A stretch of 5,609 bases of DNA from Candidatus Desantisiibacteriota bacterium. GTDB lineage: Bacteria; JACRDZ01. The position numbers and the translations under genes are program-made. The stretch covers positions 1 to 5,609 of the forward strand of contig JACQWU010000140.1 in the NCBI GenBank assembly GCA_016209155.1, given 5' to 3'. Shown here in pieces: positions 1 to 2,396 of the stretch. The notes below the pieces were generated by a model. It did not search any database. It was not told the DNA's origin and saw only the letters and a program-made list of their open reading frames with translations. Position 1 is the first letter of the stretch. Every line of letters begins with the position of its first letter.

Positions 1-392
1 GATGATCCATAAAAACAAGGATTGAAACACATCAATGCCATAAGTATTTAAATAATCAATTATTTATTTGAATTGATGATCCATAAAAACAAGGATTGAA
101 ACTTTTCTGAAAAAAAATACATGGAGTTAATTAATCAGGATTTGAATCGATGATCCATAAAAACAAGGATTGAAACTAACCCGATGTAGGGCTCATATTC
201 TCCTACGGAGATTTGAATTGATGATCCATAAAAACAAGGATTGAAACTTATAAAAGATTAAATAAAATTGTTGATACAAAATTATTTGAATTGATGATCC
301 ATAAAAACAAGGATTGAAACCAGGAAACGTTTGAGTTAGGCTATATCCAGTTTTAATTTGAATTGATGATCCATAAAAACAAGGATTGAAAC
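1..392 (+). CRISPR. CRISPR array segment: five full 37-nt repeats plus one edge-truncated repeat
   Basis: Complete repeats lie at 66-102, 140-176, 211-247, 284-320 and 356-392. The last 28 nt of another repeat are at 1-28, cut by the window edge. Each full repeat begins ATTTGAATTGATGATCC and ends ACAAGGATTGAAAC. The only visible variant is the copy at 140-176, with C for T at repeat position 9. Spacers are 29-65 (37 nt), 103-139 (37), 177-210 (34), 248-283 (36) and 321-355 (35), all different and mostly AT-rich. The 3' ATTGAAAC end is typical of type I and type III repeats, where it becomes the 5' tag of the crRNA. I therefore infer transcription along the + strand with the leader left of the window. 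No cas gene is present, so the subtype cannot be fixed. Confidence 0.98.
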
Positions 393-1163
393 ATCTTTAG
401 ATATGATGATCCAATTTGGAATGAGTTTGGCTGGCCGCCATTTGATTATGGGTGCAGATGCAGGGTTAGAGCATTATCAGACAAAAATTTAGCTGATAGA
501 AAATTAAAGGTTTCGTCTTCAGAAGGGAAATTAACTACTGAGGAAGTAATAATAAATCAGGAAACAGGAAAGACGGGGAAAGTTGGCGTTTATAGGTTAG
601 ATAATAAATTAGATATACGGACAGGTGTTGGTTTTAATTTTAATCAGGGCAAGGAAGCCTGGCAGCCGGACTTAAATAAATATGATTATGATATTGCAAA
701 ACAATATATTCAAGGTGCTATCACGGGACCGGATTTTCAAAGATTTTTTGAAAATAAAACACAAGGAAATTATCCGGTTGCAGTAATAGATGAAGAATAT
801 ATGAATTCAATAGGATCAAAATCACAGGTGGTTTTAATGAGTGATTATACCGTTAAAAAACAAAAAGGATTAATACCAGGTAAAATTGGGCATAAGGAAT
901 TATCAATTGAGGATTATCAATTATTACCTGATGTAGTAGAAAAAGCTCAGCTGGTAGTTAAAGATAAAGAAAATACATTTGTGTTTTTAAAAGTAAATGG
1001 TGAAATTTATTATGGAGCAATAAAAACAACGGCTACAGGAAAAACAAATTTTTTAGAATCATTTAGAAAGGCGCAAATGGCAGATATAAAAAACTTCACC
1101 CACACGCGATCCGTTTTTACAAACGTCCTACGGCCGGGAGATTCACCGTGTTTTCAGAGCTGA
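393..1163 (+). pseudogene. 5'-truncated Mu gpF-like phage head morphogenesis protein with C-terminal nuclease-like domain
   Basis: The frame is open from the end of the CRISPR repeat to a TGA at 1161-1163 (256 codons) and has no start; the N-terminal part is missing. It opens with YDDPIWNEFGWPPFDYGCRC (fragment residues 4-23), the hallmark C-terminal motif of the SPP1 gp7/Mu gpF minor head proteins, which act in prohead assembly and DNA packaging. The later part, about residues 150-245, contains HKEL, DYQLLPDVV, IKTTATGKTNFLESFRKAQ. This pattern resembles the phage-Barnase-EndoU-ColicinE5/D-RelE-like (PBECR) nuclease domains often fused to gpF; that assignment is by recollection of the family pattern. 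An internal ATG at 801 would give 120 aa but cuts the domain structure, so it is not the true start. The last 23 codons (from about 1095) are richer in GC than the rest and may not be ancestral. Confidence 0.85.
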
Positions 1164-1219
1164 TAAATAAAGAGTACGATAAAAAAAGATATTTGTCAAT
1201 AAAATAAGTAAAGGGAAGT

Positions 1220-1684
1220 ATGGCTGATTTGGCGGAAATTATAATTGATAATACTGCGGTAATTAAACTGCTGACAACATTATCAGGGAGATTAAATGAT
1301 ATGAGCCCGATAATGCGCAAAACAGCGGGGGTTATGCACGATGCGGTAGAAGAAAATTTTGCGCAGGAAGGACGTCCGGAAAAATGGGCGCCTTTGGCAA
1401 AATCAACCATAGCAGCAAGGGAGCGTAAAGGATATTGGCCGGGGAAAATAATGCAGAGAACGGGAGCTATGATATCGGCATTATTTACGAAGTATAGCAG
1501 TAATGCAGCAATAGCTGGATTTCCGCCGAGCATTAAGCAGGCGACAAGAATGCACTGGGGATATCCAGGCGGTACTGGGCGTGGACATGCAGAAACCCCG
1601 GCGCGACCGGTATTAGTATTACCGCCAGAAACTATTGAAGATATTAGGGATATGTTAGAAAAAGAAATAACAAGGGTTGTTTAA
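1220..1684 (+). CDS. Phage virion morphogenesis protein, Mu gpG-like (tail completion family)
   Basis: This 154-aa protein matches the Mu gpG/phage virion morphogenesis family (Phage_tail_S), whose members act late in assembly, at the head-tail connection or tail completion. Family features are the N-terminal helical stretch with LSGRLNDMSPIMRKTAGVM (22-40), then WAPLAKSTIAARE (56-68), MQRTGAMISAL (78-88) and a C-terminal ARPVLVLP segment (128-135). The length is normal for the family, so this is the only intact gene of the phage block. AAGGGAAG directly before the ATG serves as ribosome binding site, though its spacing is short. It lies 56 nt after the gpF stop and 50 nt before gpI, in the Mu order F-G-I, which supports all three calls. 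Confidence 0.88.
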   Translation: MADLAEIIIDNTAVIKLLTTLSGRLNDMSPIMRKTAGVMHDAVEENFAQEGRPEKWAPLAKSTIAARERKGYWPGKIMQRTGAMISALFTKYSSNAAIAGFPPSIKQATRMHWGYPGGTGRGHAETPARPVLVLPPETIEDIRDMLEKEITRVV

Positions 1685-1690
1685 TATAAT

Positions 1691-1716
1691 GTAGGGGCAG
1701 GTCCCTGTGCCTGCCC
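1691..1716 (+). repeat. GTAG-headed perfect hairpin, REP-like
   Basis: GTAG at 1691-1694 is followed by a 7-bp perfect stem, GGGCAGG (1695-1701) and CCTGCCC (1710-1716), with an 8-nt loop. It lies between the gpG and gpI genes and is much richer in GC than its surroundings. No T-run follows on either strand, so it is not a typical intrinsic terminator. A GTAG tetranucleotide 5' of a palindrome is the hallmark of REP sequences recognised by RAYT (TnpA-REP) proteins. I infer membership by form only. Confidence 0.6.
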
Positions 1717-1734
1717 ATTAAAAAGGGAATTAAA

Positions 1735-1944
1735 ATGACAGATGAAAAGTGGATTCCGATTTTTCGGACTGGGGCTCATGTTGATAATAATGGAAATATG
1801 AAAATATGGAGACAAAAAGATTTGGATGACATAGTAGATAAATATAATCCATCTTACAAAGAGGCTCCGATTGTGATTGGACATCCGACTGATAACGCTC
1901 CGGCATATGGCTGGGTTGAGGCTATTAAGAGATATTTGAATTGA
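1735..1944 (+). pseudogene. 3'-truncated Mu gpI-like phage protease/scaffold protein, cut by a CRISPR repeat
   Basis: The first 66 residues match the N-terminus of Mu-like prophage I proteins (Mu-like_Pro family), head maturation proteases that also supply the scaffold. The signature is WIPIFRTG (6-13), DLDDIVDKYNP (29-39), APIVIGHPTDNAPAYGWVEA (44-63). Members are several hundred residues long, so most of the protein, including the catalytic part, is missing. The last phage-encoded base is 1933; residues 67-69 (YLN) and the TGA stop come from the CRISPR repeat. The start is supported by AAAGGGA at 1722-1728, six nt before the ATG. The break lies at a repeat border rather than at a phage or transposon end. 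Confidence 0.85.
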
Positions 1945-1970: not shown

Positions 1971-2111
1971 TTAAGACGACTAAATGATCACATTATCCTT
2001 TTGATATATTTTTTCTGTTTTTATTATATAAAGGTTTATTCATTTAAAATAAACTAAAGTAACAAGATTCACCCTTTATGTAGCAGCTCGATCATTATCC
2101 AGCTTAATAAG

Positions 2112-2134
2112 GCGAATAGTAATTCGCACACTAC
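2112..2134 (-). repeat. GTAG-headed hairpin on the minus strand, REP-like
   Basis: Read on the minus strand, GTAG (2134-2131) and TGT are followed by GCGAAT (2127-2122), a 4-nt loop (2121-2118) and ATTCGC (2117-2112). This is a 6-bp perfect stem. Its layout resembles the hairpin at 1691-1716, including the leading GTAG, although the stem sequences differ. It lies upstream of the predicted promoter. Membership in one repeat family is inferred from form alone. Confidence 0.4.
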
Positions 2135-2149
2135 AAATACTATAAATAC

Positions 2150-2164
2150 GCATTTCGTAAATGC
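2150..2164. repeat. Short perfect palindrome GCATTT-CGT-AAATGC
   Basis: Six-base arms (2150-2155 and 2159-2164) flank a 3-nt centre, ending 17 nt before the -35 box of the predicted promoter. It could be an operator-like site or a chance palindrome; nothing else supports a role. Confidence 0.3.
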
Positions 2165-2181
2165 CATTACAAGAAATAACA

Positions 2182-2209
2182 TTGACATGAAAAATTTTGT
2201 TAATATAAT
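2182..2209 (+). promoter_or_regulatory. Perfect-consensus sigma70-type promoter
   Basis: TTGACA at 2182-2187 and TATAAT at 2204-2209 are separated by 16 nt, both boxes matching the housekeeping consensus exactly. Transcription would start near 2216. The next recognised gene begins at 2397, giving a leader of about 180 nt, and no other gene lies between. I infer that it drives the envelope gene cluster to the right. Confidence 0.7.
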
Positions 2210-2235
2210 ATATATGATTTAATATTAATAATAAT

Positions 2236-2361
2236 AGGAGAACAAATTTAAGTTTGATTCAAGTCTTTATAATCAGGCAGGTAATTTTGGATTTGAAAGA
2301 TCATCTGACGATTAATAATACTCTTTTTCTCATTCTTAAGTTTTATGTTAATTATATTTGA
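2236..2361 (+). other. Ribosome-binding-site-like AGGAG with a possible 35-codon leader ORF (TTG start)
   Basis: AGGAG at 2236-2240 lies about 20 nt downstream of the predicted transcription start, but no ATG or GTG follows at usable spacing. A TTG at 2254, 13 nt downstream, opens a 35-codon frame ending in TGA at 2359-2361. Its product would be hydrophobic, with no recognisable family. It could be a leader peptide, the decayed 5' end of a lost gene, or chance. I do not claim it is translated. Confidence 0.2.
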
Positions 2362-2396
2362 TAAACAAATTAATTTCTCCGGATCAAACTTATTAA

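Follow-up and report, generated by a model that had tools for sequence, protein, structure and literature searches.

How did a stretch of phage head genes come to lie where a CRISPR array should hold a single spacer? The window, 5,609 bp long, is the whole of contig C39, which belongs to a draft MAG of 3.08 Mb in 352 contigs that is 79% complete. C39 has no N run. Elsewhere in the MAG, contigs C29, C11, C20, C200, and C113 carry scaffold gaps whose flanks overlap by 8 to 23 nt and were left unmerged, a sign of a coverage-limited assembly.

Phage head genes between two perfect repeats

Because the window is a complete contig, its CRISPR array starts inside a repeat, at the contig end. This partial array (positions 1 to 392, forward strand) consists of a first repeat trimmed to 28 nt by the contig end, five full 37-nt repeats, and five spacers whose lengths are 37, 37, 34, 36, and 35 nt, in agreement with the 34- to 37-nt range first reported for this locus. 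The repeat copy at 140 to 176 carries a T-to-C change at repeat position 9. The two repeats that enclose the phage genes, at 356 to 392 on the left and 1934 to 1970 on the right (both forward), are perfect 37-nt copies; the right-hand one is the last repeat of the array and, judging from the orientation in a related genome, marks its trailer end. Searching the MAG with the 28-nt repeat core, and allowing up to three mismatches, finds seven copies, all on C39. No array with this repeat was found among the genome contigs and viral contigs of other assemblies that were searched, and a search of genomes from the same phylum returned one degenerate copy only.

Between the two perfect repeats lies the phage block (393 to 1933, forward), which at 1,541 nt is not of the length of the array's ordinary spacers, 34 to 37 nt. 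Its GC content is 38%, compared with 28% for the array and 31% for the right flank. The block is a single collinear F-G-I segment with intact reading frames and no frameshift, as the original prediction of Mu-like head genes in one spacer position had it. The first gene (393 to 1163, forward) is Mu F-like, encodes a minor head protein, and is represented by its 3' part only; its 256 codons are open from the repeat border and end in a stop codon at 1161 to 1163. Positions 393 to 1160 match the C-terminal end of Mu F, with 18.4 bits to PF04233, under the Pfam cut-off of 29.6, and with a strong match to phrog_220 in PHROGs (E value, 2.6e-22). The second gene (1220 to 1684, forward) is complete and encodes a Mu G-like tail-completion or virion morphogenesis protein (gpG; PF05069, E value of 2.6e-15). 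The third (1735 to 1933, forward) is the 5' part of a Mu I-like head maturation protease gene, whose 66 codons run up to the repeat border (phrog_976; E value, 7e-24).

Consecutive homologues of F, G, and I are thus present, and their order and families are those of a Mu-like head module; the difference is that the outer genes are truncated at the repeat edges. Identity to relatives on viral contigs is 27 to 32% for F, at most 46% for G apart from one short segment at 59%, and 35 to 66% for I. With F and I truncated and G left alone, a use to the host is unlikely. Insertion of a prophage was rejected as an origin, since the block holds only internal parts of phage genes and lacks phage ends. 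A transposon was likewise rejected, given terminal inverted repeats of at most 4 nt and no transposase, as was a repeat carried by the phage itself, with the repeat present in none of the viral contigs searched.

Two minor features of the block were also recorded. The interval at 1693 to 1718 (forward) holds a dispersed element, GTAGGGGCAGG..CCTGCCC; related copies of it occur at more than 10 sites in the MAG and also in genomes outside the MAG's phylum. Further, the block starts with ATCT (393 to 396) and ends with AGAT (1930 to 1933), so that AGAT is found at the 3' end of each strand, probably by chance.

The truncated genes had been described as cut exactly at 392/393 and 1933/1934, and both junctions could be checked against relatives. 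On the right, contig C89 of the same MAG has 87% DNA identity to the window over 1734 to 1933 and matches through the final base, T1933; past that base the window goes over into the repeat, whereas C89 continues with CCGGAG. The right border is at the repeat edge, exact to the base. On the left, protein homologues read GK and then (V/I)F.YDDP, whereas the window runs from the repeat straight into IFRYDDP, a comparison that would place the left border at the repeat edge within about 1 base. Collinearity with a phage is accordingly followed along C89 up to 1933 at the right end and read from protein homologues at the left. The chance that both borders fall on repeat edges is about (1/72)^2.

To the right of the array, the flank at 1971 to 2396 (forward) is non-coding. 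Two of its segments, 2031 to 2169 and 2249 to 2319, resemble sites on other contigs of the MAG, with 78 to 87% identical copies on C157, C302, and C231. The genes that follow are ordinary chromosomal ones, encoding a heptaprenyl diphosphate synthase component I-like protein, a type IV leader peptidase, a PCMT methyltransferase, a transglycosylase, and a type II secretion F protein.

The host CRISPR-Cas system and the related prophage

The MAG contains three Cas1 loci, two of which have arrays of their own with different repeats. The third, on contig C29, carries Cas10d (PADLOC E value, 7e-9), Csc2 (2.5e-24), Csc1 (2.2e-13), and the Cas3 of type I-D (1.1e-30), together with Cas6 and Cas1, and the contig stops soon after cas4. 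Cas10d, Csc1 (Cas5d), Csc2 (Cas7d), and a separate Cas3 helicase are therefore all found on C29. No contig of the MAG bridges C29 and C39. In a genome of the same phylum, G001, a Cas1 that is 93% identical is accompanied by cas4, a leader, and a repeat with 3 differences from ours across 28 positions, in the order cas4-leader-repeat. By synteny with this genome, the array on C39 probably belongs to the type I-D system on C29. The C29 gene set, the 37-nt repeat, and the 34- to 37-nt spacers resemble those of known type I-D systems (Cas10d, Csc1, Csc2, and a separate Cas3'), with the difference that here the array and the cas genes lie on separate contigs and are linked through the related genome. 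The G001 locus (L097, 8565 to 8592) combines a cas1-cas4 module and a leader with a single repeat and zero spacers.

The cas4-leader-repeat orientation in G001 would put the leader to the left of the array on C39 and the phage block at the trailer end, which is normally the oldest. The reverse orientation was considered and rejected because G001 contradicts it.

Contig C89, which supplied the right border, is a host contig that runs into phage structural genes, so a related prophage lies beside host genes in this MAG. A near-identical source phage was not found among viral contigs that encode F, G, and I proteins, phage and plasmid records, or genome contigs, where only distant relatives appeared, and an exact 20-mer from the right end of the block likewise returned no source.

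Spacer-protospacer identity and the assembly graph

The three explanations originally listed for this locus, an assembly chimera, recombination, and one long acquisition, proved to be the right ones to weigh. The first two both need the ends of the block to be former spacers. Putative spacer S1 (393 to 429, forward) would be at most 37 nt long and identical to its own protospacer. Putative spacer S2 (1897 to 1933, forward), also of at most 37 nt, is identical to the C89 prophage at 36 of 37 positions.

If the contig is a chimera, the array truly reads repeat-S1-repeat-S2-repeat, and an assembler working at small k passed at S1 into a co-sampled phage and at S2 back into the array. We regard this as a serious contender whose chances fall somewhat short of even. 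Contig ends were compared among 85 sampled contigs, with random internal positions as a control. Contig starts that recur elsewhere do so over 141 nt (three contigs), 39 nt (three), 29 nt (C39), 134 nt (one), and 26 nt (one), whereas the lengths at random internal positions are scattered. The default k values of MEGAHIT include 21, 29, 39, and 141, and contig-end repeats of exactly 141, 39, and 29 nt point to this assembler. For C39, the 29-mer at the left end recurs at 365 to 393; this case is weak evidence because the T/C variant at repeat position 9 gives the same start base. Contig ends of the MEGAHIT kind, with that reservation for the 29-nt case, suggest that the assembler retained unitigs built at k = 29, a length below that of a spacer. 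The fragmentation of the draft and its scaffold gaps are consistent with modest coverage, the phage genes are undecayed, and the structure is on one contig only, all of which a chimera would explain.

The same range of k values also makes such an accident difficult. A k of at least 39 is needed to cross the 37-nt repeats, and at such values a 34- to 37-nt spacer is separated from its protospacer; the two share a graph node only at k = 21 and 29. Since any k that resolves the repeat also splits spacer from protospacer, the chimera needs three coverage accidents, one in the host and two in the phage, namely, loss of the S1-repeat-S2 link while its sides stay covered, and breaks just outside both protospacers in a phage that is itself covered over exactly the block. 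In addition, the missing phage flanks (the portal gene and the N-terminal half of F) were sought among the MAG contigs and none was found, although a free phage need not be binned.

We modeled these accidents in two ways. A simplified multi-k assembler produced 0 full chimeras in 616 runs, with single false junctions in 0 to 3% of runs at coverage of 5x or less and in none at 8x or more. Given a phage and two suitable spacers, which both models presuppose, a Monte Carlo calculation yields a joint probability of no more than about 6e-6 for a host at 3 to 8x and no more than about 1.6e-6 at 8 to 10x, with values below the first figure from 10x upward; contigs averaging about 8.6 kb would imply about 10x if coverage is uniform. 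Both are models of MEGAHIT that omit paired reads, local assembly, mercy k-mers, sequencing errors, and uneven coverage, and within that frame they weaken the chimera reading. The original prediction had ranked the chimera as most probable; it stands as possible, but these results do not favor it as the preferred reading.

The flanks of the putative spacers bear on the question as well. The type I-D PAM is GTN in Synechocystis and GTH in Microcystis (PMC10212523). No GTN lies 5' of putative S2 at any spacer length from 30 to 41 nt, but GTN may not be the PAM of this lineage. The 5' flank of putative S1, predicted from homologues, would be AAR rather than GTN. A PAM was also sought through the other spacers of the array, for which no protospacers were found. 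As both the chimera and recombination require S2, its lack of GTN counts against them alike; the weight of the missing GTN is limited, since the tested PAMs come from other lineages. We did not rely on a self-targeting motive, which the 36-of-37 match of S2 to the C89 prophage might offer, because the flank has no GTN.

Possible exchange with a phage or capture by Cas1

We favor, at a probability of about 0.4, the reading in which the locus is genuine and was produced by homologous recombination of the array with a Mu-like phage, whether infecting the host or resident in it. We infer that S1 and S2 were spacers, that an exchange took place, and that function was lost, along the following lines. 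The ancestral trailer end would have read repeat-S1-repeat(...)-S2-repeat, where S1 derived from the F gene and S2 from the I gene of one phage, both lying in the order and orientation that they have in the phage. Crossovers within S1 and protospacer 1 and within S2 and protospacer 2 would have swapped the repeat or repeats and any intervening spacers for the 1.5 kb of phage DNA lying between the protospacers. S2 would thereby lose its upstream repeat, leaving no correctly tagged crRNA, and S1 its downstream repeat. The transcript between the two border repeats would be a 1.5-kb unit, from which S1 might yield a crRNA only after trimming.

The borders, the gene content, the related prophage in the MAG, and, by synteny, the orientation are the observed part of this account. 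Recombination is supported by the coincidence of both borders with repeat edges, by the collinear F-G-I segment without a frameshift between them, and by the joint accident that the rival chimera needs, modeled at about 1e-6. A donor of this kind also fits the host, given the related prophage on C89, which matches putative S2 at 36 of 37 positions, and the dispersed element of the block, which is common in the MAG. In staphylococci, experiments have demonstrated that a spacer recombines with the phage sequence that it targets (Varble et al. 2019, Nat Microbiol 4:956; cited in PMC8616872), and two such crossovers, as that laboratory work is described there, would account for both borders. By the same description, spacer-length homology drives the exchange in the staphylococcal case, as it would here. 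The outcome described there is phage transduction of CRISPR-linked genes in the laboratory, whereas at this locus phage DNA would stay behind in the host array, and the setting is a draft environmental genome.

Several points count against recombination. Neither S1 nor S2 has a GTN flank, that of S1 being a prediction only; the viral, phage/plasmid, and genome collections searched yielded no near-identical source phage; and the case is one draft contig, with the repeat in no second assembly of those collections. Further, no natural case of host-side spacer-protospacer exchange was found in the literature searched, which sets a low prior. Recombination is slightly ahead of the chimera, nearly a tie, and the order hinges on priors that are low and poorly known.

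The long acquisition would be a single oversized capture, in which type I-D Cas1 complexes joined the ends of a 1.5-kb fragment to the edges of one repeat without the Cas2 ruler. We consider this unlikely. The repeat would be duplicated as in a normal acquisition, by analogy with casposases that insert kilobase elements. Casposases are related to Cas1 and insert whole transposons, and their products resemble the block in having a duplicated target on either side, which in our case is the repeat; the block differs in having neither casposon ends nor transposon genes, and Cas1-Cas2 normally sets spacer length. Two-sided integration of this kind would yield an insert between duplicated repeats with exact edges. 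Because a capture does not require S2 to have been a spacer, the absence of a PAM on the right would be irrelevant, and the AGAT at both 3' ends of the insert would fit, as a coincidence of 1 in 256 at best.

The argument raised at the outset, that the Cas1-Cas2 length ruler speaks against a long acquisition, stands, with the caveat, which favors an oversized capture, that separate type I-D Cas1 complexes handle the two prespacer ends (PMC10212523). Such a capture would nevertheless break the length rule, as the spacer length reported for type I-D is about 35 nt, varying by 5 to 6 nt (PMC10212523). Acquisition is leader proximal, and the block, being at the trailer end, would be the oldest entry, yet it is undecayed. 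The predicted left-flank PAM, AAR instead of GTN, also argues against a capture.

Some other real insertion, such as end joining into a broken array, or an unmodeled artifact, such as a local-assembly or scaffolding error, is less probable still. Scaffolding left the assembly with gaps whose overlaps of 8 to 23 nt stayed unmerged, which would suit an error of this type; random joins are not expected at repeat edges on both sides, and C39 shows no gap of its own. We put at roughly even the chances that the locus carries a natural host-side footprint, whether of array-phage exchange or of a 1.5-kb capture by type I-D Cas1, that brought phage head genes into the array and disabled at least one spacer.

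If the structure is real, immune memory would be an entry point for phage DNA, and a pair of spacers against one phage would be a pair of recombination sites. The exchange would erase memory and at the same time deposit phage genes in a defense locus, and over-long spacers, which array finders usually filter out, would merit re-examination. If the contig is a chimera, it warns that identity between spacer and protospacer can fuse host and phage in multi-k assemblies, corrupting arrays and viral contigs both.

Two further loci of the MAG were recorded in passing. On C224 (L081, 958 to 3261), Cas1 and two tandem Cas2-like genes adjoin an N-terminal fragment that, by eye, resembles a reverse transcriptase, and the first 141 bases of the contig recur inside this fragment. 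On C89 (L072, 3183 to 8791), methylase- and helicase-like genes of a defense island carry in-frame insertions (VGQAFLPV...QTGMSDLP), some with asparagine runs. These are apparently translated palindromic repeat units, and all four long-ORF copies in the 735 kb sampled are on C89.
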